This document shows, one piece after another, positions 4,268 to 46,282 of a DNA stretch of 51,147 nt. A model generated the notes under the pieces. It was given only the letters and a program-made list of their open reading frames with translations, did not search any database and was not told the origin of the DNA. Both the position numbers and the translations under genes were made by a program. The first letter of the stretch is position 1, and each line of letters opens with the position of its first letter. This DNA comes from Synechococcus sp. AG-679-C18 (GTDB lineage: Bacteria > Cyanobacteriota > Cyanobacteriia > PCC-6307 > Cyanobiaceae): assembly GCA_003210755.1 (NCBI GenBank), contig QCUL01000017.1, positions 1 to 51,147 on the forward strand, read 5' to 3'.

Positions 4268-5395
4268 TCAGTTGGCTCCCACTGAAACCTTCACAGGCAT
4301 GCCACTGCGAAGGCGGCTTGTATTACTCACTGCCACCTTGTCCCCTGCTTTGAGTCCAGAGATCACGGGGTAAAGATTGTTCTGTAATTGCCCAAGCTTG
4401 ACTGGGGTTTGAAACACCATCGGAGTGTTCCCAGGAAGCTTTTCCAGCTTTTTCAGCTCTTGAGCCGTCGTATTGGGTGAACTTTTGATTTTCGGCAGCG
4501 CCTTGCTGATCGGTACCACCCTGTAGACGAAAGGCTGTTGAGCTTGCATCATCACGGCCTGCACTGGCACAGCCAGGTTTTGACTCGTTCCCGTGATGAT
4601 CGTCGAAGCCACGTACTGGCCAGTTTTTAATTGTCCGGTGAGATTGGGGAATTCAGCTTTCACCGTCATCGTGTTCGGTGGGTTTCCGTTTTGGTTGTAT
4701 GCGAAGTAAGGAGAAATAAAGGTGATTTTTCCCTCACCTGTGATCTGTGGGGTGGATTGGGATACAACTTCCACAGTTTGCCCCAATTTGACTTGAGAGG
4801 CTTGGGATGACGGAATATCCATCAACGTCCAGAGCGTGGAGTTGTCCACGATTCCAGTGATGTCTTGTCCAGTTGTAACGTAATCTCCGAGCTTCACTGT
4901 ATCCAGGTCCCCGACAACACCATCAATTGGAGCGCGCACAAATTTGTAATTAAGGGTTGCTTTGTCCTTGATAGCCCGATCTCTTGACACGATCGCCTTT
5001 GTGGCATAGGAATCACGATCTTTCGCTGATGCGGCTCCTTGTTCGTAAAGGTATTGGTATCGCTCAGCATTAATGATGTCGAAGCGTGCTTTTGATTTAG
5101 CTGCATCGAGCTGAGCACTATCCTGCGTATTGTCAAGGACAAGAATCACTTGTCCTGCTTGAACTCGATCTCCCTCCCTAACAAGTTTTTTGATGACCCG
5201 TCCATCGGCTTCAGGACTTAACATCACATTTGTAGTGGACTCGAGCGGGCTGATTACCTTGATACCTGGCGAGAAGTTGCTTTCTGAAATTGTGGCGGTC
5301 TTAATCGATAAGAATGTGACGCCGGACTTTTTACCTTGACTGCATGCTGCAAGAGCAGTTGAGACAATCAGCACGACCGCAAGGGAACCTCGCAC
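4268..5395 (-). CDS. RND efflux periplasmic adaptor (HlyD/MFP) lipoprotein
   Basis: This is the membrane-fusion protein of the efflux pump encoded immediately downstream. It shows the lipoyl/hairpin/lipoyl arrangement (EADGRVIKKLVREGDRV, then a helical hairpin, then FVRAPIDGVVGDL), followed by beta-barrel and membrane-proximal domains. I chose a GTG at 5395 because it gives a textbook lipoprotein signal, MRGSLAVVLIVSTALAAC, with lipobox LAAC and an AAGG ribosome-binding sequence about 7 bases upstream. The same frame stays open upstream to 5626. That longer start would put 77 extra, compositionally odd residues before the signal peptide. It is the first gene of the operon adaptor-pump-hydrolase. 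Confidence 0.9.
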   Translation of the reverse strand: MRGSLAVVLIVSTALAACSQGKKSGVTFLSIKTATISESNFSPGIKVISPLESTTNVMLSPEADGRVIKKLVREGDRVQAGQVILVLDNTQDSAQLDAAKSKARFDIINAERYQYLYEQGAASAKDRDSYATKAIVSRDRAIKDKATLNYKFVRAPIDGVVGDLDTVKLGDYVTTGQDITGIVDNSTLWTLMDIPSSQASQVKLGQTVEVVSQSTPQITGEGKITFISPYFAYNQNGNPPNTMTVKAEFPNLTGQLKTGQYVASTIITGTSQNLAVPVQAVMMQAQQPFVYRVVPISKALPKIKSSPNTTAQELKKLEKLPGNTPMVFQTPVKLGQLQNNLYPVISGLKAGDKVAVSNTSRLRSGMPVKVSVGAN

Positions 5396-6170
5396 AATCC
5401 AACCTTTAACTTGGCGGAGGTTACTTGTTCCTCGAGCTTGATGGCGGTATCTCAGCCAAGTCCTGATCTGCCTCTGAGAAGCGAAGCGAGTGGCATCGTT
5501 GTGCTGTGGTTTTGAAAGCAGCGCTGTCCGTGCCGTTCCCTCCCCGTCTTGGTCAGTATCAGACTCAAGTTTTGAAGAAATGGCGCGCGATCGGAACGCT
5601 GGATGGGCGTCTCCCATGGTCAACACTTAAAGCTTGAAAAGGGGGCGGCTCACTGCAACAGATTGCTATCAATACGAATGCGAGCTTTCTTTTGTTTTTT
5701 AGGTGATCCAGTGTTGCTTCGTTTTATGGCTTGAGACTGCTAATAGCGACTTGCTTGTTATTAAGTTGATCTTCTATTTGCAAGAAGTTGGACTATATCG
5801 AGCTTATTAGGTGATTTGAATTTTTAGTTTAAGCGTGAATGGCTGGCTTTGCGAAGAATTAGTGACGTTAAAGGCTCAGCCCCTGGAGAAGAGATTGCTT
5901 GCTTCATTTGTTTTTAACCACCAACGTTCTAGACCCTCACACCCACCGAGCTTGCACTCTGAACGAAGAAGGATCCCGTTTGTCTGCGCCGAGTGAAGCC
6001 CATGGAGAGGGGGCATGACGCCTGCAGAGGTGGTGCCGTTGCTGATCTCAATGGCTGGATCGTTGCCTTTTCGAAAGCCAATGCTTTGCGTTAATTCATT
6101 GGCAGCAAAGGTTCTATGAGCCTGGCTAAAGGTGCCAGCAGAGCGATTCATTCTCACGTCGTTTTATCCA
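5396..6170. other. Intergenic region between divergent operons
   Basis: This stretch separates the minus-strand efflux operon from the plus-strand urea transporter, so promoters for both should lie here. Bases 5396-5626 are open in frame with the adaptor but are probably leader. Bases 5640-5875 are visibly AT-rich. A 93-codon minus-strand frame at 5876-6157 overlaps the region upstream of the transporter. Its protein shows no motif I recognise, and I do not call it a gene. No clear sigma-70 pair or NtcA palindrome could be assigned by eye. Confidence 0.4.
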
Positions 6171-7775
6171 ATGCAGATTGATAATCATTCTGTTTTTGAG
6201 CTGTTGAAGGCTTTATTGCCGCCGACTCCCCCGGCTCGGCGAGCTGCAGGGTTTGCTGGGTTTGGCAAACGCTTCGCTTCAAGCCCTTGGCTCAGCAGCT
6301 TGCGTAGCTTTTCGCAGGTGATTTTCATCAACCATCCGCTCAGCGGTGCCCTGCTGCTAATGGCCTTTCTGCTGGTTTCGCCCTGGATGGCTCTTTTGGC
6401 TGGAGTTGGGATGGCTGCAGCCAACCTCACTTCAAGGTTGCTTGGGTTGGCCAGCACGTTGCGGGACCAGGGCATTCATGGTTTCAACGGCGTTTTGGTG
6501 GGTTGTGCGGGCGCATCTTTGCTACTTACCAGCGCACTGAGCCGTGTTGGGCTCGTGGTGAGTTTGGTAGCGCTCGGGGGCAGCCTCACCACGCTGATGC
6601 TCGAACTCTGGAGCGGCTGTTTTCATCGGCGCGGAGATCCTCCGGTGCTCACGTTGCCGTTTTGTCTGGTGACCTGGTGCTTTTTGATCCTGGTTAGTCC
6701 TCCATCGCCGGATCCGATTGAGTCCGTCCAGATCTCGGCAGCAGGAGGCACGCTGCGGGCATTGCTGCTTGGCCTGCCACACAGCTTCGGTCAGGTGTTT
6801 CTCTGCTCTGGTTTGGCGAGTGGCGTGCTGGTGCTCTTGGCTGTGGTCATCGCCAGTCCGATGGCTGCGGCTCTTGGCGCGTCTGGAGCGATGGTGGGGA
6901 TGGTCACGGCTTTTACTCTGTCTCAAGGCGCTGATCAAGCGGCCGTGGCCCAGGGGCTCTGGGGCTACAACGGCCTTCTGGTGGCGATCGCCCTAGGCGG
7001 GATTTTCCATGCTCCCGGAGTGAAAAGCTTGCTGATGGCGCTGGCTGGGGCAGGCCTAGCCACTTTGCTACAGGCAGTGCAGCTTTCGCTGATCAGCAAT
7101 CTGCCCCCTTTGACCCTCAGCTTCGTGCTGACAACCTGGCTGCTTCAGCGCCTTGCCAGGGAGGGGGTACCGGCTCTGATTCCCGTCTCCTTGCATGCGG
7201 TGGTCACTCCTGAGGAACATCGCAAGCGGTTTCTTGTTGCCAGAGAGCTGCTCGGTCGTTTCCGTTGCAACCTGCGCCAGCGGATTGCTGGCACGGCGCA
7301 AGCCGTCGGTCTGGTGCCGTTGTCGCCGTCGCTTCAAAAGCGGGCGCAACATTTGTTCCAGCTGCTCGACCGTAATTGCGATGGCAGCCTCAGCCTGGAT
7401 GAGTTGCGTGAGGCGTTGCTGCCGTCTCGATCCAGTGATGTGGCCTCAGATCAAAGCCAATCCTCTCTGGATTCTCAGCTCAAAGCAACGATGGCTGCCA
7501 TGGATTTCGATGGAGATGGACGGATTGATTCCGCCGAATTCAGCCAGCTGATCCAGCGATTGCAGCGGCTGCGTGAGGGAGAGGAACGGCTCCTTCTGTA
7601 CCTCTTGCCCGTGGATGCCAATGGTGACGATCGCCTTGATCGGGATGAAATGGCTCGACTGCTGAAGAGCCTCGGTCAACCGCCGCTTACAGCGACGGAG
7701 CAGTCATTGGTGTTTGTCGATCAGGAGCAGGGTCTGCGCTGGTGCGATTTTGTGGATCGCTTGCTGTTGATTTGA
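6171..7775 (+). CDS. Urea transporter (UT family) fused to C-terminal EF-hands
   Basis: The N-terminal ~340 residues form a polytopic membrane domain resembling the urea transporter family, with FINHPLSGALLLMAFL early and GIHGFNGVLVGCAGASLL near residue 110. A second repeat half contains GLWGYNGLLVAIALGG near residue 268. The remaining ~190 residues are soluble and contain three canonical 12-residue calcium loops: DRNCDGSLSLDE (~residue 400), DFDGDGRIDSAE (~445) and DANGDDRLDRDE (~482). A degenerate fourth hand is near the C-terminus. The ATG at 6171 is preferred; a GTG 13 codons upstream is also in frame. The protein likely moves urea passively across the inner membrane, with calcium possibly gating transport (inference). 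No urease or urtABCDE genes are nearby. Confidence 0.88.
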   Translation: MQIDNHSVFELLKALLPPTPPARRAAGFAGFGKRFASSPWLSSLRSFSQVIFINHPLSGALLLMAFLLVSPWMALLAGVGMAAANLTSRLLGLASTLRDQGIHGFNGVLVGCAGASLLLTSALSRVGLVVSLVALGGSLTTLMLELWSGCFHRRGDPPVLTLPFCLVTWCFLILVSPPSPDPIESVQISAAGGTLRALLLGLPHSFGQVFLCSGLASGVLVLLAVVIASPMAAALGASGAMVGMVTAFTLSQGADQAAVAQGLWGYNGLLVAIALGGIFHAPGVKSLLMALAGAGLATLLQAVQLSLISNLPPLTLSFVLTTWLLQRLAREGVPALIPVSLHAVVTPEEHRKRFLVARELLGRFRCNLRQRIAGTAQAVGLVPLSPSLQKRAQHLFQLLDRNCDGSLSLDELREALLPSRSSDVASDQSQSSLDSQLKATMAAMDFDGDGRIDSAEFSQLIQRLQRLREGEERLLLYLLPVDANGDDRLDRDEMARLLKSLGQPPLTATEQSLVFVDQEQGLRWCDFVDRLLLI

Positions 7776-7870: not shown

Positions 7871-8071
7871 ATGAAAGACCAGGCAGGAGAGGTGCCTAGA
7901 GATCTGAAAGAGTTGGCTTCAAGGATGAGCTTGTCCCTGCTGGCGTGGTGGGAGGTTCATGGCCGTAGGGATCCTTTGCAAAAGCCCTGGATGTTTATGC
8001 CTAAACGCCGCTGGCCGCAGCCTGATCAGTGGCTTTCTCCTTATGGCGTTTGGATTGCCGAGGTGATGCTG
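7871..8071 (+). pseudogene. Truncated 5' end of mutY, cut by element insertion
   Basis: The 67 codons from the ATG at 7871 encode a MutY N-terminus that parallels the intact gene at 15296: SLLAWWEVHGRRDP, KPWMF, RWPQP and WIAEVML recur in the same order and spacing. After the shared codons for E-V-M-L the similarity stops abruptly. The frame then runs through unrelated element DNA to 8173 (33 further codons). The two N-termini differ at many positions, so this is not a recent duplication. The simplest reading is that this is the original host 5' end, orphaned when a mobile element entered mutY and supplied a replacement. It lacks the rest of the glycosylase and the iron-sulfur cluster, so it cannot be functional. 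Confidence 0.85.
8060..8071 (+). repeat. Left attachment core (attL) within mutY
   Basis: The 12 bases gaggtgatgctg are identical to those at 15485-15496 and encode E-V-M-L of the MutY active site in both copies. Upstream the two copies align as diverged mutY; downstream only the right copy continues as mutY. This marks the left junction of the inserted element. Serine integrases exchange at a 2-base core inside a short identity, so the exact crossover lies somewhere in this 12-mer. Confidence 0.75.
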
Positions 8072-8108
8072 TACTCCGCGACATACATGGTCAGCTTGGT
8101 GTTCTCGG

Positions 8109-9980
8109 GTGGCCAACTCCATGGCGTTGGTTTATTCCTATCGGCGGGTTTTCACTGGAGGTCAGGCCAATAGCGATAAGTCAGGTCTGCAGCGCCAGGA
8201 GCAGGCTCTGAAGGATTGGATGCGAAGACATCCAGACTTTCGTCTTGCCGAGGAACTTCTCGATCCAGGCGTCAGCGCCTATACCGGCCGGAACCGGACT
8301 CAAGGGGCGTTGGGGCGCTTCCTGGCGGCAGCTCGTTCAGGTTCTATCCCTAAGGGGTCAGTGCTGGTCGTCGAGGATCACAGACGCTTCTCGAGGCAAG
8401 AGCCTTTGGATGCACTGGAGTCTCTGATCCGGGATGTGTGGGGGCAGGGTCTTGGGTTTGCGGTCTGTAGCTACCAGGCGGGCTCCCCTTTGTTCAAGGA
8501 GACGACTGGAGCTCAGGATCTGGCGATGTTGGCGTTCCTATTCGCGCAGGCCCATGCCGAAAGCGACAAGAAGTCGAAATGGTCTCGAGGAGGATGGCGC
8601 AAGATCTACGAAGCTCAGGACCGAGGTGAGAGGCCGCGGCATCGCAATCCCTGCTGGATTGACCGGGATGAGTCGTTGCCTAAGAACCCATTTTTCTTGA
8701 ACAATCACGCCAAGTCGATCGAGGCGATGTTCAAGATGTGTCTGGCGGGGATGGGTCAGACGCAGATCGCCGATGAATTGAATGCTGAGGGCTACGACTC
8801 CCCTACTGCATCCAAGGACGGACGTTGGAACCGTGGCCAGGTGAGTCAACGGTTATTGGATCCAGCAGTCACGGGCTTGTTGCAGCGCAAGAACAGCCAT
8901 GACATCCCCGGCTATTACCCCTCCGTTATTGATCAAGAGACCTTCACAAGAGCGCAACGGGCGAAGTCAACGCGCGATCGGAAGCGTTCAACCACCAAGG
9001 CCCGGAAAGTCCATTTCCTGTTCAGTGGTTTGGTCCGTTGTGCGGGATGTGGGTCTCTGTTGACCTACAGGGCTGCAGGTCGTTACGCCAGACCACAGCA
9101 CCCTGGCTATGTCACCTGCACCGATAGCTCTGGCGCGGTTGCAAAAAAGGGTGCGACGCGTTGTCGTGAGCAGCTTGGCGCCTGGCGGAAGACGCCGACC
9201 ATCAATCTTCCTCTGGATGAGGCCGAGGCGATGCTGATGGCGACCTTGTCTTTGGCTAATTGGCAGAACCTCTTCCCGATACAAGCTGGGCCTGAAGTGG
9301 AGGTCTTGATCAAGCAGATCCGTACTGCAAACGATCAGCTTCAAGAGCTCAGTGGAAGGATTCAGCGCGGTGAAAATCGTCTTGCTGAGGAGCTGACGAA
9401 GGAGCAGCCCAACGAGATTCAGGTCTCTGTTCTGACCGATGCCATCTCTCAGGCTCGTGAGCAAGTTCCAGAGCTCGAGCGAGAGGTCTCTGAATTGAAC
9501 TACAGGCTGAGTGAGTTACGTCCTCAGTACCCTGTTCTGAAGGCGCAGGACACAGTCGAGATCGTGTCCCAGTTTCTTCAGCATGGGCTTCAAGAGATTC
9601 CCAAACGGATGCAGTTCAACTCTTGGCTTCAGCAGCTCGGTATTTCTTGGGTCATGGGTGGAGACGCGATTCAGCTCCACTACAACCAGCTTGGACCCAA
9701 TGGGTACCTGACAGATTCTTGGGGGACTGCTGGTGGAGAGCTGCATGCCCTGAGAGCGATGGGTTACGAGCGCGGCTTTGCCTTCTTGTTTGCTGGCAAA
9801 AATTGGTTCAATCAACTGGTGACAGGACAAGGAGGAGTGATTAAGGAACCTGGCAAGTTTCCGCGGCCTGTCTTCCCCCCAGAGGTCGCTGCTGGTCTCC
9901 AAGAGATCGCTCGTTTCCGTGCATCAGAGCTGGGACTGAATCTTGATCAAGAGATTCAGATGGTCAACGATCTGACCTGA
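8109..9980 (+). CDS. Large serine recombinase (integrase) with Ser-to-Phe active site
   Basis: This 623-aa protein has the architecture of a large serine integrase. An N-terminal resolvase domain (residues ~5-150) is followed by a recombinase domain (~165-270), a zinc ribbon with RCAGCG near residue 310, and a coiled coil near 395-465. It starts at a GTG 37 bases inside the left attachment core, the usual position for an integrase. The active-site stretch reads YSYRRVFTGGQ. Family members have Ser where Phe15 stands, and the second recombinase in this element reads YYRVSTDRQ at the same place. The codon is TTC (8151-8153); TCC would restore Ser. The protein is otherwise full-length, but as read it should be unable to form the phosphoserine DNA link. 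Confidence 0.9.
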   Translation: MANSMALVYSYRRVFTGGQANSDKSGLQRQEQALKDWMRRHPDFRLAEELLDPGVSAYTGRNRTQGALGRFLAAARSGSIPKGSVLVVEDHRRFSRQEPLDALESLIRDVWGQGLGFAVCSYQAGSPLFKETTGAQDLAMLAFLFAQAHAESDKKSKWSRGGWRKIYEAQDRGERPRHRNPCWIDRDESLPKNPFFLNNHAKSIEAMFKMCLAGMGQTQIADELNAEGYDSPTASKDGRWNRGQVSQRLLDPAVTGLLQRKNSHDIPGYYPSVIDQETFTRAQRAKSTRDRKRSTTKARKVHFLFSGLVRCAGCGSLLTYRAAGRYARPQHPGYVTCTDSSGAVAKKGATRCREQLGAWRKTPTINLPLDEAEAMLMATLSLANWQNLFPIQAGPEVEVLIKQIRTANDQLQELSGRIQRGENRLAEELTKEQPNEIQVSVLTDAISQAREQVPELEREVSELNYRLSELRPQYPVLKAQDTVEIVSQFLQHGLQEIPKRMQFNSWLQQLGISWVMGGDAIQLHYNQLGPNGYLTDSWGTAGGELHALRAMGYERGFAFLFAGKNWFNQLVTGQGGVIKEPGKFPRPVFPPEVAAGLQEIARFRASELGLNLDQEIQMVNDLT

Positions 9981-10021
9981 CGGGGGTATAGAACGCCATG
10001 TCAGATCGATGACGGTGATCG

Positions 10022-12758
10022 CTAACTGAGGTCGATTGGTTCAATCGTCCAGATGTTGCCGTCGCGTCTTGTTTGACCTGTTCTTCGCTCTCTGAACCCC
10101 AGTCTTTTGATCAAGGACCAGATCCTGCGTACGTCGATGCTGTCCATGGGGCCTGGAAGTCGGTCGGCTCTACATGCCAGTGCTCGTCCAACTCGCTTTG
10201 CTTCTGAGCGATTCAACGTTTGAAGTTGGTTCCAGACCGCGCTGATCTCTGGGCTATTTCTCGAGACGGTTTTCGCCTTGATGAGTCAGTCGAGCTTTAA
10301 CTCCTGGGTGACTGCCCAGGTCTCGCTCACATCGACTTCCGCTAGATCAAGAAACGACCCTCCCGCAATCAATCGTCTGGCCTCACGTTGCTCGCTGGCA
10401 AGATCCGTGGTCCCCAGTGTTAGACGCTCCCGAGCTTCCATGCGAAGAGCATCTGCTGCTTCCAGCGATCGTTCCCCTTGCGCCCTTTGTTTTGCCTGGG
10501 GTGATTCATTCACTTCACCTTGCTGACTTTCAAGCCCCTTGATGTCGCGAATGCGATAGCCCTCTTCCTTAAGCAGGCCATGCAGGCACCAACTGTTGTT
10601 GAAGCACTCGAAGTTGTTGCGGGCTTCGAGTTCGGCAACGGCTCTTTTGGTTGCTGGATGCCGATCTTCGAGTAGAGCCGCGTAGTCATCAAGAGCCCCG
10701 GCCCTCATTCGCTCTCCCAGGGCCTTAGTGGCATCTTTCGCAGTGGTTTCTTTGGTAATTCCGGCGGCCTCTGGCACGACCTTCGGTGCAAGCAGGATCC
10801 GTTGGCTGCTGTTTCGTGCTCGGTTCAGAGCCTGGATCACATCCTCTGCCTTCCAGCAGTACGCCTGAACGATTGCTGTCAGCGCCACGGGGGTTGCTGC
10901 CATGGAGATGCCGCATGACACCGCGGGGCTGAAGCCAATGCGTTGGTATTGCGGGCCCTCTATCTCTGCATCGGCCATCAGGCGGGACACCCTTGGGTCA
11001 TCGCGACTGTCGTCTTCTCCGGTGATCCTCAGCTCCTCTGATGGTTGCGCGTCTGGAAGCGCATCAAGGCATCGGTGCAAGCCAGCGACTGTTCCATGCC
11101 CTAGCCAGAACCGTTGTTGGGTATGAACAACATCCTTTAAGCGCAAGTTCAGGGTCCGTTCGTTGGCGGAGTTCGGAAGCCCAATGAACAGGTCGCGTTC
11201 ACGGGTGAATGTGCTGTGGATCAGTAGCGGATCAAGGCCTGTGATGCCTTTCAGCCAATTCAGTTCAATGTCGCCAACCAGAGCATCGGCCGCCCAGACA
11301 TGAACGCAGTCCAGAGCGAGTAAACCCTCCAAGGCATCCAGAGCCTTTGAGCGGATGCTGCGAAGTGCGGGGGTGCCTCCCATGGTCCAGTTCGCGAGGA
11401 CTTGGCTGATTTCATCGAGCACCAGCAGCGTCGGTCGTGGGTTGTCACGCAGCTCCCAGAGCCAGTTCCAGAGAGTTCGCTCGCCCGAATCCTTGAAGGC
11501 ACTTTCACCGCAGCAGAATAAGCCATCCCGCATGGTTCGCCCTTCATGGAGGCCAGCCCTTTCTGCAGATTTGGGGGGGCGCGCTGAGGTGCTTGACTCC
11601 GAACTCATGGGCTCCTTTGTAAACCAATGGAGAACGGTGGTAGGCACCAAGGACGGTGAACTTGGCCTTGGTTTTGGCTTCCAAGGTCTCAAGGGCCTCC
11701 AACATTGCCTTGGACTTCCCTGTTCCGGTCGCACCTTTCAAGACGATCACGCGATGCGTCTCGGCGACCTTCAACAGGTCGTCAGCGTTGAACTCATCTT
11801 TGGTCTGATGGGTGGTCCAAGTGCCCTTGATGCGTCGGTAGTTGCTGTTGGTGTCGGATGTGGTGACGTAGGCATCCAGCCAATCCCGCAGCTCGCGCTT
11901 CGTTTCAGCGTCTGCCTTGATCAGTGCGGCGACGAAGTCATCGGTCTTGCCAGGTTTGTCCGGCAGCCAACACCACCATCCGCCGTTGCGGGCTCCTTCA
12001 GATTCCATGCGCCGTGCCAACTTCCTGGCTTGGTTTTTGGATTGGCTTTTGCTGGAGCCAGGGCTGTCGAAGCGAACAACGATCTTGCGGCCCTTCTTGG
12101 CAAGAAGCTTCAGAGCAGGCATGAGTCGGTCGCTGCGACCTTTCTGATGCCAGCCATTGATCCCATTCACTCCCACTGCGATCTGGCCGATCGAGCAAGC
12201 CGCCATCGCCTTCAGTGCTGATTCCTCAATCCAGACGGGAACTTCTGGTGTCTGGAAGACAAATAGCCAGGATTGTTCGGGTGTGTAGGTCTCCGGTGTT
12301 GATGTGAATCCGTGCTCCCCAAGGAGATCAAGTGCGCCGTCAAGGCTCAAGGGCGGGAGCGTGAGACCACGGTTGATTTCATCCCATCCGGTGGCATCAA
12401 GCCTCAAGCCACCCGGTCCCGGTGTGCGCCGTGATGGATGAATTCGGTGGCCAACAAAGGCTTGCCTGTGCGAAGGCCAGCCATGGCGATTCACTCCGAC
12501 AGAAAACAGTGACCAGCCGCCTTCTGCTTGGTGAGTCCTTCTTCTGACTGATGCGCAGTTCTTAGCGCGCGTTTGGCACTGCCCATGCGTTGTCTCCGCG
12601 TTCTTTTCATCCAGCCAGTGATAGAGCCCAGTGAGGTAAGCGCCTGAGGGCCCTAGCTCGATTGCGTTCGTATGGAAAAGGGTTGGATCAATTCCGTGAC
12701 AACTCAGGAGTTCTCCCACTGTTTGAGGGGGCAGTGCATCTCTGAGGTCGTTGTTCAC
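10022..12758 (-). pseudogene. Broken DUF3854-type primase/helicase
   Basis: Two long minus-strand frames and a short third piece together make one replication protein of about 900 aa. The N-terminal part (12758 to ~11575) holds a DUF3854/Toprim-like region (AVGVNGINGW, then KIVVRFDSPGSSKS) and a Walker A P-loop KGATGTGKSK. The second part (~11575 to 10286) holds a Walker B-like TLLVLDEISQ and the helicase body. The frames join if one C is removed from a run of seven (forward-strand Gs at about 11573-11579). A TGA at 10286-10288 then interrupts the frame. Reading past it gives about 88 further coding-like residues, ending at 10022 with NIWTIEPIDLS. So there is one frameshift plus one nonsense codon. 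The protein probably replicated the element. Confidence 0.8.
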
Positions 12759-12885
12759 GCATGCTGGGGCGACCCTTCAAGCTACCGGGCATTGCAGAGG
12801 TGATTCGCTGGATTGCTCAGGAGGTCTGCAACGGATTGGAGCTTGTTGAAGCCCGTTGGAAGCCTGTTGTAAAGCGTACGTATGG

Positions 12886-13376
12886 ATGAATGCTTTCCTC
12901 CAGCTCCCTGGTGAGCCCGCAGATGCGTTCGAGCAGCTCCTTCTGCACCGAGACTTCGGGCCTAGTCGCCAGTTCAGTCAGACAGCGGATGTCGTGGGCT
13001 GTTCTGAATCGACCCTCCGCCGACGAGCGCAACAGTGGAACTGGATCGAGCGTCTGGCTGACTACGACGCGGGAATGCTCCAGCAGGCATCAGAGGCTCG
13101 AACGAAGGAGCACCTTGAGCGCTACAAACACCAGCTTGAGACGTTCCGCCAAGAGCAGCTCGCACGAGCTCGAACCGTTGGAGCACGAGCCGAAGAGTTG
13201 CTGGTGATGGTCAGTGCAGCGTGAGGCATCACCTGGAAGCCGGCACGATCCTCCAAGGGCGAGAGCTTCCTTCTGTGATGGCCTCGGCCTGCAAGGCATT
13301 GGAGGGTGCGATGAACATCGAAGCGAAGGCTCTAGGTGTGGCGGGGCTACTTGAAGATTTCTCGATTTTGATCTAG
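12886..13376 (+). pseudogene. Frameshifted terminase-small-subunit-like protein
   Basis: The first 112 codons encode FLQLPGEPADAFEQL followed by a helix-turn-helix (ADVVGCSESTLRRRAQQWNW) and a basic helical region. This pattern is common in small phage proteins with terminase-small-subunit-like DNA binding. The frame stops at 13222-13224. In the next frame coding-like sequence resumes at once (HHLEAGTILQGRELPS, then ACKALEGAMNIEAKALG) and ends at 13374-13376, fitting the expected C-terminal helix. A single-base shift near 13215-13222 would unite them. The track-length start would be a TTG at 12856; the ATG at 12886 is preferred. It diverges from the primase gene. The family call is moderate. 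Confidence 0.6.
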
Positions 13377-13536
13377 ATGCAAAAGTCTTTTTTGGAAGCG
13401 GGAAGATATTCTGTATTGCTTTTATGGAATGGATTTAAGGAGCTGTAACTTGATATAGTATGGTCTTTAAAATTGCATGAGCCTAGTTCCGTTTGTGCGT
13501 TAAAGTATTACAAAATGGGTTCCATTGAAATCAATT

Positions 13537-14199
13537 ATGACAAAAGAAAAACTCGAAGAAAAGTTTAAAAATTCATCTCTTGTGGTATCAGCGGGGATGC
13601 CGAGGTCGGGCTCCACCCTTCTCTTCAACATTCTTCGCGAAATTCTTTCGAGTAAGTGGGCTGGTCAAGTTTCTGCTGGATGGGTGGACGACATTTCTGA
13701 ATTACCAAAGAATAGCGCTTATTTAATAAAAGTTCACGATTTCAATTCTTATTTCCAGGCTCATGCTGATCATTCCTTTTATACCTACAGGGATGTTCGC
13801 GTTGCCGCCGTTAGCGCAGCGAAAAAATTTGGTCGAACTCCTACAGTTGAGTCAATCAGAGAGAATTTGAATCAATATTTGCTCGCAAAGAGGACCTGCG
13901 ACTTAGTTATTAAATACGATGATTTGATATCGAGCCCTGTTTTTTTTGTTCGGCAAATTGCAAAGATTCTTGGCGCCTCTATTGACGTGGATGATATTAT
14001 CAAAGAAGCTTTTTATTTGCAACCTCCAGAAAAAGACGAGGTGAATGGCGCCTATTCGAAGAAAACTCTTCTCCATGAGAAACATTTTACTCATACAGGA
14101 GATGATGAATGGAGAGACTTCTTGTCAGATCGGCTTCAGAGAGATATCAGTGGGGAGTTTTCTTGGTGGTTTGAAGAGTGTGGTTATCCGGCAAAGTAA
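13537..14199 (+). CDS. Sulfotransferase-like protein (AT-rich cargo)
   Basis: The product is 220 aa from an ATG at 13537; an in-frame TTG lies 4 codons upstream. The N-terminal VVSAGMPRSGSTLLFNIL is the 5'-phosphosulfate (PAPS) binding loop of the sulfotransferase fold. DHSFYTYRDVRVAAVSAAKKF matches the second conserved region, where an arginine and a serine contact the 3'-phosphate. It would transfer sulfate from PAPS to a glycan or other acceptor; the acceptor is unknown. The gene and its 150-base leader are much more AT-rich than the rest of the element, which suggests separate acquisition. It is the only undamaged non-mutY gene in the element apart from the integrase frame. Confidence 0.75.
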   Translation: MTKEKLEEKFKNSSLVVSAGMPRSGSTLLFNILREILSSKWAGQVSAGWVDDISELPKNSAYLIKVHDFNSYFQAHADHSFYTYRDVRVAAVSAAKKFGRTPTVESIRENLNQYLLAKRTCDLVIKYDDLISSPVFFVRQIAKILGASIDVDDIIKEAFYLQPPEKDEVNGAYSKKTLLHEKHFTHTGDDEWRDFLSDRLQRDISGEFSWWFEECGYPAK

Positions 14200-14543
14200 T
14201 TTCTGATTGATGTTCTCCGGTTAGTACTCATAAACTGCATCACAGAATCACTGTGGGCGTGACTTAACACTCTTGTGAGTGCTTGCGTTTAAGAGGTGAT
14301 GGCTTGTTTGCGTGTTTTGCGCGGCGTCCACCTGTAACAGTCTTGGAAATTCAGGTCGAAGCCACTCTTGGTAGCGATTTGTGGGCTATTCATCTTGCTC
14401 TCCATCTCGGCTGCGTTGAACGTAGGCAACCCGGGTCTTTGCTGAGCCTGGCGGTGGCCTTCATGGTCTGCAAATGCATTGCCCATAGAGCATTTTGTTA
14501 CAGGTTCAACTGCCGTAGACTTGTGGAACAAGCGGTTGGATGC
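14200..14543. other. Gap between sulfotransferase and resolvase
   Basis: An open frame extends upstream of the resolvase from 14283, but its first 87 codons show no resolvase similarity, and the ATG at 14544 is a better start. I see no RNA gene or clear terminator here. It presumably holds the resolvase promoter. Confidence 0.4.
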
Positions 14544-15296
14544 ATGTTGTCTTTGCCTGATCGCCCTCTGAGTCCTGTTCGTTGGCTCGCCTACTACCGG
14601 GTCAGTACAGATCGCCAGGGAAGCTCTGGGCTGGGTCTCGATGCTCAGCGGGCCAAGGTTGAAGCCATGGCCTCCGAGAGGGGGGCTGTGATCGCGGCTG
14701 AATTTGTTGAGGTCGAAAGCGGTCGCAAGAACGATCGACCTCAATTGGCCGCAGCCTTGGCTCAGGCCCGTGCGGAGAAGGCCGTCATTGCTGTTGCCAA
14801 GATCGATCGTTTGGCTCGTGATGCTGGCTTCGTCTTGAAGCTCGCCAATGAGGCTGAGAAGAACGGGATGGGTGGCTTTGTCTTTTGCGACCTGCCAGAC
14901 ATTGATGCCACCACCAGTGCTGGTCGGATGGTGCTCACGATGATGGCCAGCGTTGCTGAGTTCGAAGCACGTCGGATCAGCGAGCGCACTAAAGAAGCGT
15001 TGGCCGCGGCCAAGGCCAGAGGTGTTCGCCTGGGGGATACCGTCAAGGTGCGGCCGAGAAGGCTTCCGAACACAAGCAGAAGGCCATTGCTGAGGCTGAG
15101 GCTTTGCGAGGAGTCCTTGAGCCAATGGTTCGCGAAGGCCTGAGTTAGAGGGGCCATGGCTGATGCGCTTGCAGGTGTTGGCAAGCTCAGTAGGTCAGGG
15201 CGTCCTCTCGCACCGACGCAGATCGGTCTGATCCTTCAGCGCTTGGGTTTGTCGGGAAAGCTGCTGGGCAGTGACCAGGCCGGGGTTGCTGCCTGA
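14544..15296 (+). pseudogene. Small serine resolvase with three lesions
   Basis: The catalytic domain is intact: YYRVSTDRQGSSGLGLDAQ with the active Ser, then KIDRLARDAGFVLKLAN and VAEFEARRISERTKEALAAA. Downstream, the frame breaks at a run of five Gs (15032-15036). Adding one G restores LGGYRQGAAEKASEHKQ and onward. That frame meets a TAG at 15146-15148. A further one-base shift reaches ADALAGVGKLSRSGRPLAP and QIGLILQRLGL (15156-15293), the helix-turn-helix DNA-binding tail normal for this family. The inferred original protein was about 250 aa. Its final TGA overlaps the mutY ATG, so this gene sat directly upstream of, and coupled to, mutY. The encoded product as read lacks its DNA-binding end. 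Confidence 0.8.
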
Positions 15297-16510
15297 TGGG
15301 TCAACGAAGCAGCGCTGAGCATCGCGACTTCAGTCCGCTAGCGGCTGAGCTCAGTCAATCCCTGTTGGCCTGGTGGGAAGTTCATGGTCGGAAGGACCCT
15401 GCGCTCAAGCCGTGGATGTTCACCAAGGACGGCAGGTGGCCTGAACCCCACGAACATCTTGATGTCCTGGACTGCTGGATCGCTGAGGTGATGCTGCAGC
15501 AAACACAGCTGCAGGTGGTGCTGCCTTACTGGCTGCGCTGGATGGAGATCTTCCCAGCTCTTGAGGTGCTGGCTGAAGCGGAGGAGCAGACAGTGTTGCT
15601 GTGTTGGCAGGGTCTCGGCTATTACTCCCGGGCTCGTCGTTTGCATGGCTCGGCCCGGCAGTTGCTGAAGCACATCGGCGCCAACGCTTCTGATGATCCG
15701 CAATGCTGGCCACGGGAATTGGAGGCATGGCTGGCGTTGCCCGGGATCGGCCTCAGTACGGCTGGCGGCATTCTCTCCTCAGCTTTCAATAGCCCAGTGG
15801 CGATCCTGGATGGCAACGTGCGCCGGGTGCTGGCGCGGTTGCAGGCCCATCCGCGACCGCCGATGCGCGCGCAATCTCTGTTTTGGAGCTGGAGTGAGGC
15901 GTTGATCGCTGCTGCTCCTTTGCGGGCCAGAGATCTCAATCAGGCCCTGATGGATCTTGGCGCTACGGTCTGCACGCCCCATTCCCCACGTTGCGGGTGC
16001 TGTCCTTGGCAAAAACAATGCGCTGCTTACGCTGCTGGCGATGTTGAGCGCTATCCCGTGAAAGACGCCCCTCGAGCTGTGCCTTTTCAGGTGATTGGTG
16101 TGGGCGTTGTGCTGAATAAGGACGGCGAGGTGCTGATCGATCAACGTCTTAATGAGGGGCTGCTCGGTGGTCTCTGGGAATTTCCTGGCGGGAAGCAGGA
16201 GCCTGGGGAGGCAATTGTTGACACCATTGCCCGCGAATTGCGGGAGGAGCTAGCGATTGAGGTGATCGTTGGTGAGGAGTTGATCAGTCTTGATCACGCC
16301 TATTCCCATAAGAAGCTGCGCTTCGTGGTGCACCTCTGTTCTTGGCTGTCTGGAGACCCCCAACCTCTGGAGAGCCAGCAGCTGCGCTGGGTACGCCTCA
16401 ATGAGCTGTCGAGCTACCCCTTTCCAGCAGCCAACGCACGGATCATCGAGGCGTTGGTTGGCAGGTTGGATCCGCCTCGTCAGGCTGAAGGAAGTTGCAA
16501 TGAGGCCTGA
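15296..16510 (+). CDS. mutY: A/G-specific adenine glycosylase MutY
   Basis: MutY removes adenine mispaired with 8-oxoguanine. The 404-aa protein has the HhH-GPD glycosylase core: catalytic Glu in WIAEVMLQQTQL near residue 65, and the helix-hairpin-helix/Asp region LPGIGLSTAGGI near 148 with VAILDGNVRRVL following. It also has a C-X6-C-X2-C-X5-C iron-sulfur loop (CTPHSPRCGCCPWQKQC, ~222-238), and a C-terminal NUDIX-like domain with FPGGKQEPGE and RELREEL that recognises the oxidised base. The first ~67 codons belong to the inserted element and differ from the orphaned host 5' end at 7871. The ATG overlaps the resolvase stop (TGATG), and the stop overlaps the next gene's ATG. Confidence 0.96.
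   Translation: MGQRSSAEHRDFSPLAAELSQSLLAWWEVHGRKDPALKPWMFTKDGRWPEPHEHLDVLDCWIAEVMLQQTQLQVVLPYWLRWMEIFPALEVLAEAEEQTVLLCWQGLGYYSRARRLHGSARQLLKHIGANASDDPQCWPRELEAWLALPGIGLSTAGGILSSAFNSPVAILDGNVRRVLARLQAHPRPPMRAQSLFWSWSEALIAAAPLRARDLNQALMDLGATVCTPHSPRCGCCPWQKQCAAYAAGDVERYPVKDAPRAVPFQVIGVGVVLNKDGEVLIDQRLNEGLLGGLWEFPGGKQEPGEAIVDTIARELREELAIEVIVGEELISLDHAYSHKKLRFVVHLCSWLSGDPQPLESQQLRWVRLNELSSYPFPAANARIIEALVGRLDPPRQAEGSCNEA
15485..15496 (+). repeat. Right attachment core (attR) within mutY
   Basis: This second copy of gaggtgatgctg matches 8060-8071. Here it is followed by the normal continuation of the gene (Q-Q-T-Q), so the recombined mutY is intact. The 12-mer includes the codon for the catalytic Glu. 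Confidence 0.75.
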
Positions 16511-17472
16511 TGGCGGAAAACTCTTCTCGTCCGCAGGTGCTCTGCCTTGGTGAAGCTTTGGTTGATCGCCTTGGTCCTCCTGGGGGAAATCCAGCGACGG
16601 ATCAGCCTGTGGATGATCGCTTGGGAGGGGCTCCAGCGAATGTGGCCTGCGCCCTTGCCCGGCTAGGAACTCCAGTGGCCTTTCTGGGGCGCTTGGGTGA
16701 TGACTCGATCGGTCAATCCTTCCGTGCGTTGTTCGCTGAGCGCGGTATTGATCAGGGCATGGTGCAATGCGATCGCCAACGTCCTAGCCGCACCGTCTTA
16801 GTAAGGCGGTCCCGAGTAGGTGAGCGTCAATTCCAGGGTTTTGCTGGTGATCAGGGGCTGGGTTTTGCTGATCAGGCGTTGGAACTGCAGCAACTGCCCA
16901 CCCCAGCAAGCTGGCTGCTGATTGGCACGATTCCTCTGGCTACTGCGGCGTCGGCTAAGGCTTTAAAAGCAGCTGTGTCAGATGCGGGCTCGAAAGGCAT
17001 CGCATTGGCCTTGGATGTGAACTGGCGTCCCACGTTTTGGGATCCCCTGGCAGATCCAGCGGCAGGGCCAACGACCGAAGCCGCAACGATGATCAGGCCC
17101 CTGTTGGAGCAGGCTGCCCTGATCAAGCTGGCCCGCGAGGAGGCGTTGTGGTTTTTTGACAGTGATGATCCTGCTGCGATTGCCGCAGGTCTTCCACAGC
17201 GCCCCGATGTGGTGGTGACCGATGGAGCCGAACCCGTTCGCTGGTTGATCGAAAAGGAGATGGGGAGCATGCCGGTGTTTCAACCGCCTCAGGTGATCGA
17301 CACCACGGGCGCAGGAGATGCCTTCACCGCTGGTTTGTTGCATCGTTGGGATCGCCCTGTACAGGAACGGTTGCGCTTTGCTTCAGCCTGTGGGGCACTG
17401 GTGTGTGGCGGCGCCGGTGCGATCGATCCACAGCCACGGAAGCAAGACGTTCTCGCTTTCCTGAACCGATGA
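16510..17472 (+). CDS. PfkB-family carbohydrate kinase (fructokinase-like)
   Basis: The 320-aa product is a ribokinase/PfkB-family sugar kinase that phosphorylates a sugar with ATP. The N-terminal signature RLGGAPANVACALARLG (residues ~36-52) with FLGRLGDDSIG, and the C-terminal signature DTTGAGDAFTAG (~262) carrying the catalytic Asp and anion hole, are both intact. The closest layout is fructokinase (EC 2.7.1.4), but substrate is not proven by sequence. The start ATG overlaps the mutY stop (TGATG) and its stop overlaps the deformylase ATG. The three genes are therefore likely translated from one mRNA, which after insertion would start inside the mobile element or its resolvase. Confidence 0.9.
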   Translation: MAENSSRPQVLCLGEALVDRLGPPGGNPATDQPVDDRLGGAPANVACALARLGTPVAFLGRLGDDSIGQSFRALFAERGIDQGMVQCDRQRPSRTVLVRRSRVGERQFQGFAGDQGLGFADQALELQQLPTPASWLLIGTIPLATAASAKALKAAVSDAGSKGIALALDVNWRPTFWDPLADPAAGPTTEAATMIRPLLEQAALIKLAREEALWFFDSDDPAAIAAGLPQRPDVVVTDGAEPVRWLIEKEMGSMPVFQPPQVIDTTGAGDAFTAGLLHRWDRPVQERLRFASACGALVCGGAGAIDPQPRKQDVLAFLNR

Positions 17473-40625: not shown

Positions 40626-42095
<1,470 letters not shown>

Positions 42096-42125
42096 AATAA
42101 GTAAAGACAGGCCTTTAGAGAGCCG

Positions 42126-42187
42126 AATCAGAAAGAGTCTGTTCAATAATCCTCGCGGATATTGCTTAATAGACTCTTTTTCTGATT
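42126..42187 (+). terminator. Long hairpin terminator after thiC
   Basis: Arms aatcagaaagagtct (42126-42140) and agactctttttctgatt (42171-42187) pair over almost their full length, with two extra Ts on the right. The loop contains a second pairing, caataatcc with ggatattg. The T-rich right arm fits an intrinsic terminator for thiC. It also marks the boundary of the AT-rich insert. Confidence 0.75.
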
Positions 42188-42222
42188 AATGGACTAAGTT
42201 AAAGCAACTTAGCTCCCTCGGA

Positions 42223-44061
42223 GTGCAAAGTGTGAATACTTTTCTTTTAAACCGAGAAAAGCAAAGTTATTTTTTGTTAAAAATATTTTATTACGCCTTT
42301 GGGGGGTTCTCTCTTCTGCTCGCTGCTTACCGAGCATGGAATATGCCAATCACTGTTGATGAAGGGATCACATATGCTGATCATATTGTTCCTAAATTCG
42401 GCCTTTTCGACTTTAGCGCTGCAAATAATCACTTTTTGAACACATTCTTTGTCAAAATATTTTCTATTTTTGCACCATTTAATGCATTCGCTATAAGGTT
42501 GCCAACATTGTTGATCGGGGCATGGTTGTTTTTGTTTTACGTGCCATCTAAAAAATTAAAAATTCAGCATTCATTGGCTTTTCTGTTTATTTGCTTGAGT
42601 CCATACTTCAGTTCTGAATATTGGTCTCTAGGTCGTGGTTACTTCATGTCTGGATGTTTTGCTGCATCCTTTTCTATGCATGGCGTTTTGCAAAACTTCT
42701 CAGGCAAAAATGGATATTTTTTGCTCCTTTATTGATTATTTCCTTGCCAACCCTGGCTGGACTCATGGATTAACGTTAAGGATATACCTTTTGCAGTTTT
42801 TTACACTATTTCTACTTACTATTTAACATGGCTTTGCATTCATAGGCCTTTTCAGAATAGTTTTAGTGTAGTCACTCCATCGTTTTTAGCCTTGTCTTTG
42901 GCAGGTGCTATGGCTGTTGGTTCAAGGCCTGCGTTTTTGCCAATCGCGCTATTACCAAATCTAATTTTGGCCATTTATTTCTTATTAATATTTTCTGTAG
43001 AGCATAAGAATTTAAATGGACAGAAAATTATCTGAAGAGAGCCTTGCTTTTGGTATTTCTCTCTTCTTGTCTTTTATTCATTATTTCATCATTATTGATT
43101 CCAGCTAGCTGGAGTAATCCACTTAGCTACTTTTCAGATGTTGCGAAGTTTCACTCAAATCATCCATGGGGAGGCTGCAGTCTAATTTTCGGCGAGTGCC
43201 GAAGTATTTCGGGGAATTATTCATTCTTACAGTATGCAATCGATCAGGTGATTGTTAGATTACCACTCCTTCATCTTGCAGTGTTTTCATGTTTGTTTTT
43301 GCTGTTTTTAGTTGCTGAACCGATTCGTTTTTTGCTATTACGCAGTTTTCGTCAAACTAGTTCTCAGCCTCGTCAGAGTATGCACTTTTATTCAGCCTCC
43401 CATTGGGATGGAATCATTCCCTATGTGTTTCTGACTCTTCAAGCAATTCTGTTACCGGCTTTTGCTCTCGTGTTTGGATCGACTACCTTACGATGGGCTG
43501 AGGCACTGGATTTTTGCCTTGGCTGCATTTTGCATTCTCGGTGGTGCATTGCCTTCAGGAATTGAATCACTTCTAGATGTATCACCAATATCTATCCAAG
43601 GCCGAATTGCTAAAGCTTCAAAGGGCTTGGTTGTTTTTGTTGTACTTGTAGTTTCAATCGTTACTACTCTTGATTATGCAGCAATTTCACCATATTCTTA
43701 TGCGTATATGAATGAAATGTCTAGGTTGAGACTTAATCATTCTGACACTGAGCTTGACTATTGGGGTATTGCATCAAAGCCAATCGCCGAAGAAATTAAT
43801 TCTCGACAATGGCCTGTGAGTAATCTTTTGGATGATGGAGCAGCAGATCATATTTACTATCGAAAGCGTTTTTTAGATGATTCGTACCCCTCTAGCTCAA
43901 CTCATAAAGAGGCACTCATTCATCGCCGATTTAAAACACAATCAAAACGCCTGGCAGGATTTAATTGCCAAGATCAATTCTCTATTACAGATCAGCTTTT
44001 TTTGGGAAAGCCTCTTATCCTTGCGCGGGTTGGTTTTGACTGTCGGAGTAAGAATGATTAG
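42223..44061 (+). pseudogene. Decayed GT-C type membrane glycosyltransferase
   Basis: Several overlapping frames make up one AT-rich polytopic protein of roughly 600 aa. The first part (42223-42735) has an early acidic motif VDEGITYADH followed by NNHFLNTFFVKIF and IRLPTLLIGAWLF, the arrangement of PMT/ArnT-like GT-C glycosyltransferases. It breaks near a T6 run at about 42718. Later parts read LALSLAGAMAVGSRPAFLPI (to ~43033), then a shifted frame (43044-43565), then another (~43462-44061) ending CRSKND. At least three shifts are needed, so it cannot make one protein. Possible start GTGs are at 42223 and 42232. Confidence 0.75.
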
Positions 44062-44296
44062 TTCCTAATTTACCTGCTTATTGTCATTGATTGATTTTAT
44101 ATCTCTCGGCAGCTCATTTTCCATCTAATTTTAGCCTGAGACTATCTTTTCTCCGAATCTCTTGATGATGCTTATTGCCATCGAATAAATATGTACAGGG
44201 AAAGAGTTCATTTTTTCTCAGAATGTATCGCATTATTTCTTTGCTTGTAGCGGATTCGCCTTTGATGAGAAAATATTTATTTCCTCTGATCTGTTA

Positions 44297-46282
44297 GTGC
44301 AAATACATAGTCTTTTGTCTGCGTTGGCGTGCTTGTTCATTAGCTTTTTGTTTGCCTGCGGCCTGTATGGATTGAGTACGCTCCCGCTAGTTTTATTGAC
44401 CAAGAGACGGGGAAAGGTTTTTTTGCCTTCTTGCAATGTATTATCTGCTGGTTCTTTTGTTATTGCAATAGCTTTATTTTGTCTTGGTACAAATTTGCTA
44501 CTGCTGATCCCACCATTGATGGAGTTGGTCCCTGGTGTATCCCAGGTTCAAGGTTTACTGATGCATCGGCTGATCATGATATTTCTTCTATGTAGTATTG
44601 GCTCGATAGCAGTCTTTGGTCTGCTTTTGCTGTGGGAGCCACCATGCCGCTTCAAGGTTGCTGGTCTTTCGCTCTTTCGATTTTGTGAGTATCGCAACGT
44701 TGGACGAATCAGGCGACGATGTCTGAGTGGGTTTTATGTTTTGGCGGCTTGTTTTATTGGATATTTATTTGTTGTGACTAAGGGAGATGGTTTGAATGGA
44801 GATACAGGGCTTTATCACTTACCTAATGTTGTCCATCTAGCCAATTTTGGCATTGAATGGGGATTGGCTAATTGGGATTTGAGATATACAACGTATAGCC
44901 TTCAGTTTTTTGGACAAGCCCCGTTTCAGTATTTGCTTCCTGCGAATGGGTATGTGAGCCCTTCTCTCAATATTTATTTCTTAGCTGCTTTGTTGATGTT
45001 AGCAGTAGACTCTCTGCGTAATATTATTTTAACAAGGCGGATAAATCATTTTGGCTCTCGAGCTTTTCCTCCAATATTACTTACTGTGCTCGCATACTTT
45101 TGCATGTCGTTTGTTTTTGGGCTTGAGCCAAGGAGTTCGTTGATTTCATTTAATCCTGACTTTTCCGTTGCATGTGTTTCGATTATTGGCATCTATTACG
45201 CAGCATTTCCGTTTTCATTCGTTTCATTTGTTCTAGCCTGTGTCATTGCTTTATTTCTACCATTGTTTAAAATCACGGGTGTTTTTGCTTCCTTTGCAAT
45301 AGCGGTGGTAATCGCTCTTCGCCTAGTTCTCCATCTTTTCTGCGAGCGTTCTCGTGCTACTTCCAATCAACACTCATTGTTGAGATCTTTATCTCGGAAC
45401 TTTGCTTATTTGCGGAAATCTTTTTTGATTTTTCTAGGAGCAGGAGTACTTTTGGCCCTGATCTTCTGTTTGACCTCATTCATTATGTCTGGTTATTTCT
45501 TAGCAAAAGCAGCGGCTTTGGGACCGTTCGGGCATCACGCTGTTCCTATTGATGACTTGAAGAGTTTCCTCCAATCAGAGCTTTTATTTAATCGAACACA
45601 GTGGTATGGCATTTCTGAAGCGGATGCTCTTCACTTGCGTTTAAATCCAAATGAGTGGTTTAATTTTTGGAGAAATGGCAAGGAAGGAAAAATAATGCTT
45701 GGTTGTCTTGGTTTGGCATTAATTTCAGGCTTTGCATCCTTGGTGTTTCTAATTTTTGATCGTTCTTCTCTGAGAGCTTTTATTGAAGACCCTGAAAGAT
45801 TGATCTGCGATGATGAAATTAGGTTTGACCTGGTTGGGCGTAAACTTAGCAAAAAATATTTTCTGATCTCCAACCTGTCGATATCTGTGGCGATCTCTTT
45901 GGTCTTATTGATTGGTATTTTTCTCGGGCCGCCTCAAGCTCGATTTTATTCTTGGACCATTGGTATTTCATTTTATTTACCCCTTTCTTTGGTCTTTTTG
46001 TATCCTTTGCTCGGCTTTAGTTTTTGGTCCTTCGTGTCAGCGGCCCTAATGATGATTGGCCGCTCTGGAGTCCTCGAGAAATCTCCACTTCCTAGGATGT
46101 CAAAAAGAGCTGAATTCCATTGGAGGAAACCTGGCGCATCTCCTTGGAAGACTCGCTCTTTTTCTGATGATGAACAAACAAGATTTGACTATACTGACAT
46201 TATTGAGCATGCCGATCATGGTCCAGGTTGTTGGAGTGTTGAGCCTCCATGCTCGTTAGCTAAATCCTCTTATTATCACTAA
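44297..46282 (+). CDS. Large polytopic membrane protein, LIC_10190-like
   Basis: The 661-aa product is AT-rich and has around 12 hydrophobic segments. The loop GDTGLYHLPNVVHLANFGIE followed by GLANWDLRY, and the C-terminal GCWSVEPPCS, recall the LIC_10190 family of large membrane proteins linked to glycan loci; this is from memory of the pattern, not a search. It could be a GT-C transferase or a flippase-like protein. It starts at a GTG (44297). Beyond the TAA the same frame stays open for 58 more codons to 46459, so the present stop may be secondary. Its neighbours are a decayed GT-C gene and a GT2/GtrA pair. Confidence 0.7.
   Translation: MQIHSLLSALACLFISFLFACGLYGLSTLPLVLLTKRRGKVFLPSCNVLSAGSFVIAIALFCLGTNLLLLIPPLMELVPGVSQVQGLLMHRLIMIFLLCSIGSIAVFGLLLLWEPPCRFKVAGLSLFRFCEYRNVGRIRRRCLSGFYVLAACFIGYLFVVTKGDGLNGDTGLYHLPNVVHLANFGIEWGLANWDLRYTTYSLQFFGQAPFQYLLPANGYVSPSLNIYFLAALLMLAVDSLRNIILTRRINHFGSRAFPPILLTVLAYFCMSFVFGLEPRSSLISFNPDFSVACVSIIGIYYAAFPFSFVSFVLACVIALFLPLFKITGVFASFAIAVVIALRLVLHLFCERSRATSNQHSLLRSLSRNFAYLRKSFLIFLGAGVLLALIFCLTSFIMSGYFLAKAAALGPFGHHAVPIDDLKSFLQSELLFNRTQWYGISEADALHLRLNPNEWFNFWRNGKEGKIMLGCLGLALISGFASLVFLIFDRSSLRAFIEDPERLICDDEIRFDLVGRKLSKKYFLISNLSISVAISLVLLIGIFLGPPQARFYSWTIGISFYLPLSLVFLYPLLGFSFWSFVSAALMMIGRSGVLEKSPLPRMSKRAEFHWRKPGASPWKTRSFSDDEQTRFDYTDIIEHADHGPGCWSVEPPCSLAKSSYYH

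Follow-up and report, generated by a model that had tools for sequence, protein, structure and literature searches.

Evidence for a serine-integrase element that joins mutY at a glutamate codon and carries a replacement 5' end in picocyanobacteria

Precedents for a mobile element that gives its target gene a replacement 5' end are SXT, a conjugative element of gammaproteobacteria found at prfC, and the islands at dusA. The integrases of SXT and of the dusA islands are tyrosine recombinases. The dusA islands (IMEVchUSA3 and its relatives) have Vibrio and E. coli as hosts, and the N-terminus that they bear matches the native one at 61% identity across 35 residues (PMC8409611). SpyCI islands in mutL are phage-like and occupy the 5' end of a mutation-avoidance gene (PMC3430984), and the SpyCI element of strain SF370 blocks mutL transcription, which results in a mutator (PMC4689407). 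Tycheposons of Prochlorococcus are cargo-carrying islands of picocyanobacteria that border tRNA genes and encode a tyrosine recombinase, according to PMC10872708. The locus described here is mutY of Synechococcus sp. AG-679-C18 (genome code G000, 2.63 Mb), which lies in contig QCUL01000017.1 (C17); the whole stretch of 51,147 nucleotides is called the window. This locus very probably holds a site-specific integrative element that joined mutY at a Glu codon and brought a replacement 5' end for the gene.

Like SXT at prfC and the dusA islands, the mutY element supplies a 5' end that is in frame with its target gene and diverged from the native one. It differs from the dusA islands in the gene used, in its picocyanobacterial hosts, and in replacing 63 codons up to the active-site residue rather than 35 residues at the very start. 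Unlike in SXT, no conjugation gene was detected among the element proteins that were searched against families. SpyCI in mutL had been proposed as a precedent in an earlier note on this DNA; the comparison is apt, and both elements interrupt a gene for mutation avoidance near its start, but the SF370 element silences mutL, whereas the replacement 5' end keeps mutY whole. The element shares its picocyanobacterial hosts and its cargo with Tycheposons but differs from them in its site, the protein gene mutY, and in its serine integrase; no tRNA scan was made. Its features are those of a large serine recombinase element, namely the domain pair, a short shared core, conservative joining, and a partial dyad in the attachment site of the element (attP). 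Compared with the precedents, the differences are the replaced depth, which reaches the active-site codon, the coding attP arm, and the lasting exchange observed across a family; the integrase class also differs. No description of mutY as a site for a serine integrase or a genomic island was found in the literature searched, which left subscription papers mostly outside, so that absence in print is unproved. In PMC4619438, mutY is a multilocus sequence typing (MLST) gene.

The window contains two mutY 5' ends, as the earlier note had reported: a stump that starts at 7871 and a complete mutY of 404 codons at 15296-16510. The stump (7871-8059, forward strand) comprises codons 1-63 of the host type, ending in ...SPYGVWIA, and the first 63 codons of the complete gene (15296-15484, forward strand) are of the element type, ending in ...LDVLDCWIA. 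The two N-termini are 53% identical at the protein level. A GAG codon for Glu is codon 64 in both copies (8060-8062 in the stump and 15485-15487 in the complete gene), and it aligns with residue 43 of the bacterial MutY chain 6q0c, which we take to be the catalytic Glu43 of Geobacillus MutY. Both copies share GAGGTGATGCTG and diverge immediately after it. This sequence forms the left attachment core attL (8060-8071, forward strand), where the predicted crossover dinucleotide GA is at 8060-8061, bases 1-2 of the Glu codon, and the right core attR (15485-15496, forward strand), which contains the Glu64 codon of the complete gene. The host mutY from the Glu codon on (15485-16510, forward strand) encodes HhH-GPD and NUDIX domains (PF00730 and PF14815). 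The element proper therefore spans 8060-15484, a length of 7,425 bp within mutY at codon 64. Measured from Glu codon to Glu codon, the related copies are 9,543 bp in G030, 9,545 bp in G113, 9,558 bp in G241, and 11,127 bp in BO 8801 (G275), where codes of this kind denote genomes of relatives.

The boundaries are given directly by a comparison of G030 with G113, which come from the same family but from separate genera. Over 9,642 bp the two elements show 98.3% identity, and both are located at the Glu codon of mutY. The left edge of the identity is GAGGTGATGCGG, before which the stumps are about 50% identical in a base-by-base alignment, and the right edge is GAGGTGATGCTGCA, past which the mutY genes are about 65% identical. 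Up to each edge the two sequences match at 100% over hundreds of bases, and the mutY 5' end that the element bears falls inside the identical block, itself at 100% identity. The block and its edges thus demonstrate directly that a mutY 5' end belongs to the element and that the junction with the chromosome is at the Glu codon. Insertion at this codon, transport of a separate mutY 5' segment, and use of several hosts had all been suggested from the window alone. The comparison bears out each of them, since two genera carry the same element with the same boundaries to the base. The common core is the noted 12 bp in the window, 10 bp at the G030 junctions, and 4 bp in G017.

The same arrangement was found in other genomes, and chance is therefore excluded. 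A stump followed by an integrase or its remnant was read in eight genomes of one family (G000, G030, G113, G241, G275, G009, G327, and G177). The integrase is decayed behind the stump in G009 and G327 and diverged in G177, where it is 42% alike and the stump ends at GAGG. All eight stumps are of the host type, with YGIW, YGVW, YGVL, or, in G177, GIW behind a stop. In G327, mutY is preceded by the resolvase-gene leader that also marks scars (see below), but it stands at a contig start and the stump with its decayed integrase is on another contig, so G327 is counted as an occupied site and not as an element-free scar. A search of 31 genomes of the genus (E <= 1e-20) gave integrase matches in four, three of which (G000, G030, and G017) have this integrase; the fourth match, in G013, is 28% identical to that of the window. 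At the same threshold, 26 of the 400 family genomes drawn had some integrase match. Full-length integrases with 68-100% identity are present in six of the family (G000, G030, G017, G113, G241, and G275), and fragments with 79-92% identity are present in G345 and G327. A search of these 400 genomes with P0010, a 44%-identical homologue, added no genome. No mutY stump was found before the diverged integrases of G100 and G171, and the site preference is thus not general for the wider group. A pattern scan of 84,980 species, which detects close relatives only, returned three loci, all from Synechococcus, and a class-wide search of 194 genomes returned G000 and G113 only. In the protein database, the nearest integrase cluster is 92% identical and has 161 member sequences. 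An IMG/VR search for the integrase gave none confirmed, and matches in 26 of 50,697 phage records all had less than 60% identity.

Gene order at empty sites is that predicted for relatives without the element. The gene for a membrane-fusion protein of an RND efflux pump (4268-5626 in the window, reverse strand) is the original left neighbor of mutY. In the element-free genomes G014, G021, G024, and G007, the RND pump and membrane-fusion protein genes form a pair beside mutY, as they do upstream of the stump in the window, with the membrane-fusion protein gene adjoining mutY and pointing away from it, and no such integrase was found there; the stretches used for gene order in G024 and G007 end at or near the mutY start. 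In G113, the membrane-fusion protein gene adjoins the stump directly.

The mutY genes of relatives fall into two classes according to the codons before the Glu codon, a host type, with DPYGIW or a like motif in front of AEVML, and an element type, with VLECW or a like motif. The element type was found in 7 of the 28 genes of the genus, and in two of these seven, those of G000 and G030, mutY is occupied by the element. Eleven additional family members were mostly chosen for a good match to the element N-terminus, and counts outside the genus should not be read as frequencies. Near relatives whose types differ have high identity in the part after the Glu codon and low identity in the part before it, with values of 0.92 and 0.59 in G008/G012, 0.89 and 0.53 in G004/G022, 0.90 and 0.54 in G025/G016, and 0.89 and 0.54 in G275/G035. 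Examined in 30-base windows, the drop in such pairs is at the Glu codon. Five pairs of the same type (G014/G021, G024/G007, G016/G011, G028/G018, and G006/G026) are alike base by base on both sides. A tree of the part after the Glu codon was built from 42 rows, with G013 omitted as short and G173 lacking the motif. Ten changes of type are required on this tree, no fewer than 9 of them imposed by branches with good support, and the hypothesis that the element type forms one clade is rejected (p-AU 0.00023). The mutY N-terminus has been replaced repeatedly, as several genomes without the element retain its mutY 5' end or the tail of its resolvase gene.

Some of these replacements are accompanied by traces of the element. 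The 3' end of the element's resolvase gene, with the TGATG overlap, directly precedes mutY in G008, G312, G082, G029, and the own mutY of G017, while in G004 the leader is similar and includes a remnant resembling the resolvase gene but lacks TGATG. The stretches upstream of mutY that were examined in these six genomes gave no match to the integrase. According to the earlier note, element-free relatives with the N-terminus seen at 15296 would make the left copy an unrelated remnant. Such relatives were found (G008, G004, G312, and the own mutY of G017), but a resolvase 3' end or its decayed form lies upstream, and they are best read as scars of past insertions.

A second site of the element was found in G017, where the element, together with its mutY 5' end, is located inside a CobW-like gene beside znuABC-like genes (names given by eye). 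This borne 5' end is 93% identical to the right one of the window. When the flanks are joined, a single open frame of 442 codons runs through the junction. The G017 junctions have GAGG alone in common, and strand exchange therefore took place inside GAGG, in the Glu codon. Dyad symmetry was counted at each possible centre within 120 bp of five attP sites, and CC-GA-GG or its like was the sole best centre in four of the five with arms of 20 and of 25 bases, although G030 and G113, both among the four, have one and the same sequence. The crossover dinucleotide is most likely GA, bases 1-2 of the Glu codon, as the shared bases and the symmetry suggest. The own mutY of G017 is already of the element type, with a resolvase remnant upstream, which may explain the element at another site. 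In ICEBs1, secondary sites are used when a good primary site is absent, according to PMC3715440.

The element encodes a large serine recombinase (8121-9980, forward strand) of 619 amino acids from ATG, with an alternative GTG start at 8109. PF00239 (9e-12) and PF07508 (2.8e-13) were matched together in one long protein of 623 amino acids. The recombinase also matches the phrog_95 integrase (1.5e-47) and is 91% identical to the integrases of G030, G113, G241, and G017. Its ATG lies 61 nt past the Glu codon in the window, and the distance is 61-62 nt in all five genomes measured. On the reverse strand, a DUF3854 primase-helicase is divided into a C-terminal part (10286-11734) and an N-terminal part in a different frame (11544-12758; PF12965, 2.7e-15), and its counterpart in G113 is a single 924-amino-acid frame that matches a PHROG replication family (phrog_4913, 5.8e-10). 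The following genes, all on the forward strand, encode a terminase small subunit-like protein (12856-13224; the G113 homologue matches phrog_6299 at 6.7e-12), a sulfotransferase-like cargo protein in a GC-poor stretch (13525-14199; PF00685 and PF13469, both at 2-3e-5 and so close to the cut-offs), and a small serine resolvase (14283-15143; PF00239, 7e-34). An undisturbed resolvase frame stops at TGA (15294-15296), which overlaps the mutY ATG as TGATG. Cargo varies between copies. The copy of G113 carries MerR, DUF305, and DUF411 proteins, and DUF305 and DUF411 are linked to copper. The cargo of the G017 copy, named by eye from translations, comprises a porin, a HupE/UreJ-like protein, and a ZnuA-like protein. 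PHROGs were searched with four G113 proteins and Pfam with six; no virion protein was among the matches, small open reading frames not having been searched. The gene content suggests a phage-satellite-like island. In the BO 8801 copy (L089, 8433-13361), the cargo includes a 1643-amino-acid type ISP restriction-modification enzyme, likely a defence gene.

Several observations weigh against an active element that inserts at the Glu codon and replaces the mutY 5' end. In the window, the primase of the element is split between two frames, its terminase-like gene is shortened (122 amino acids against 171 in G113), and the resolvase has two frameshifts relative to G113. The integrase and mutY are intact while 10286-15143 carries these broken genes, so the window copy may be immobile or may contain assembly errors. 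Scans around the two mutY starts, one of them over 14150-15500, detected no sigma-70-like promoter. The attP of BO 8801 has a rival dyad centre, and the dyad of the host site (attB) is weak and in most sites not centred on GA. The part of mutY before the Glu codon evolves faster generally, and some pairs of the same type are also unlike before it (after/before identities of 0.87/0.60 in G009/G006, 0.83/0.60 in G029/G006, and 0.80/0.59 in G019/G022), so that low identity of the N-terminal part alone is no proof of a swap. On a tree of the part before the Glu codon (117 columns, with the 7 defining codons excluded), the element type needs 5 changes rather than 1, although none of 500 shuffles gave a number as low. 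On this short alignment, a single clade for the genus of the window is not rejected (p-AU 0.142).

These unlike pairs of the same type would also be expected if the two N-types were old native mutY alleles exchanged by homologous recombination, with an element that merely inserted nearby. Such exchange probably does occur, since the N-termini of G082 and G029 are hybrid, with an element-like leader and start and host-like codons beside the Glu codon, and homologous exchange has probably mixed the types there. In G013, G025, G162, and G307, the codons are of the element type but no clear resolvase end precedes them, although G307 and G013 retain TGATG, and a past element is not shown for these four. 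However, the element-type 5' end lies physically inside a near-identical block in two genera, it accompanies the element in the CobW-like gene of G017, and the identity of different-type pairs falls at the Glu codon. Allelic diversity as the full explanation is contradicted by the G017 site and the G030/G113 block and is very unlikely, but it remains a contributing process. The idea that mutY was duplicated without site-specific integration, which would make the stump an unrelated remnant, draws on the decayed mutY 5' copies upstream of mutY in G009 and G029 and on the two N-terminal copies of G114. This idea is refuted by the edges of the G030/G113 block and by the gene order of element-free relatives, which is as predicted. 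The stump and the integrase are also at constant spacing in all five cases measured, and the old membrane-fusion protein/RND neighbor is beside the stump while the full gene lies past the element. Duplication without integration is thus considered wholly improbable.

The location near the start of a gene for mutation avoidance and the SpyCI precedent (PMC3430984) could also suggest that the island toggles mutY by excision and re-integration and thereby creates a regulated mutator state, like SpyCI at mutL. The integrated state retains a complete and conserved mutY frame, so neither state would be expected to lack MutY, and such a switch appears unlikely.

The integrative element very probably operates as follows. 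The large serine integrase would recombine attP with an attB in mutY that is centred on the Glu codon, most likely at GA, and the left arm of attP is the last part of the 63-codon mutY 5' end of the element. Integration splits off the host 5' end, leaving it as the stump before the integrase gene, and fuses the 5' end of the element in frame to the host mutY body, producing a complete hybrid mutY. In the circular form, the mutY 5' end of the element would stand before the integrase gene, and in the chromosome the host 5' end would take its place, so each start region would be able to serve either gene, integrase or mutY. The integrase would then be expressed from the host mutY start region. 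The mutY start overlaps the resolvase stop, and mutY may thus be read at the far end of a transcript from the element. The TGATG overlap suggests coupled translation of resolvase and mutY, and control of mutY by the element, which the earlier note had put forward, is plausible. After deletions have removed a decaying element, its 5' end may stay in mutY as a lasting replacement.

Nine element-type 5' ends, both borne and scar, had dN/dS (nonsynonymous to synonymous substitution) ratios of 0.02-0.31, with values below 0.2 in 35 of 36 comparisons; they are therefore kept as protein under purifying selection. DNA conservation of the 21-base arm was higher in the element type (mean of 0.93, 15 sequences) than in the host type (0.78, 28 sequences), which would be expected if the arm is an integrase site, but recent common descent or the choice of rows would have the same effect. 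It can be speculated, with considerable doubt, that a half-site of attP codes for the target protein, and that the DNA-binding needs of the integrase rewrite the peptide adjacent to the active site (PYGIW to VLECW). On the same tentative footing, insertion and decay would leave an attP-like arm that is a poor attB and would vaccinate the population, secondary sites would be used as in G017, and mutY would be translated as the tail of the resolvase operon, tying the repair of oxidative damage to the element. With element-type mutY in 7 of 28 genes, finding eight of eight stumps of the host type has a chance of about 1 in 10, and the argument for immunity from this count is weak.

These findings show that, in picocyanobacteria of marine and fresh water, a mobile element splits the gene of a core DNA-repair enzyme at an active-site codon and exchanges the N-terminal part of the enzyme, in some cases for good. 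The locus offers a clean system for studying how active-site codons can act as landing sites without gene destruction, how integrase sites double as coding sequence, and whether scars protect from re-insertion. Trees of mutY in picocyanobacteria should be treated with caution because they are mosaic.

A sugar kinase-like gene, named by eye (16510-17472, forward strand), is the conserved right neighbor of mutY, with a match 3' of mutY in 25 of the 29 loci of relatives (L003-L031). On the left, a urea transporter gene with EF-hands (6132-7775, forward strand; PF03253, 3.9e-61) lies between the old neighbor and the stump. In G009 (L033) and G029 (L034), urea transporter homologues are stacked upstream of mutY among the decayed mutY 5' copies, and G009 also has integrase fragments. 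This locus looks like a site of repeated landing and accretion, and in our own reading G009 contains two layers of decayed insertions, one behind the other. In G004 (L038/L048), the urea transporter gene is just downstream of mutY in the opposite orientation, and it seems that this gene also moves about the mutY locus. The two mutY N-terminal copies of G114 have equal scores and are 1.2 kb apart (G114:C1:2711088-2711246 and 2712285-2712443). The mutY of G013 (L005, G013:C1 around 141766-142893), which has an element-type 5' end, contains one in-frame TAG in a one-contig genome; this may be a natural loss of mutY or a read error. Elsewhere in the window, the region 42000-47500, between thiC-like and transketolase-like genes, has a GC content of 0.37-0.48 and encodes a membrane protein and a glycosyltransferase-like gene, all named by eye, and it is probably a separate island.

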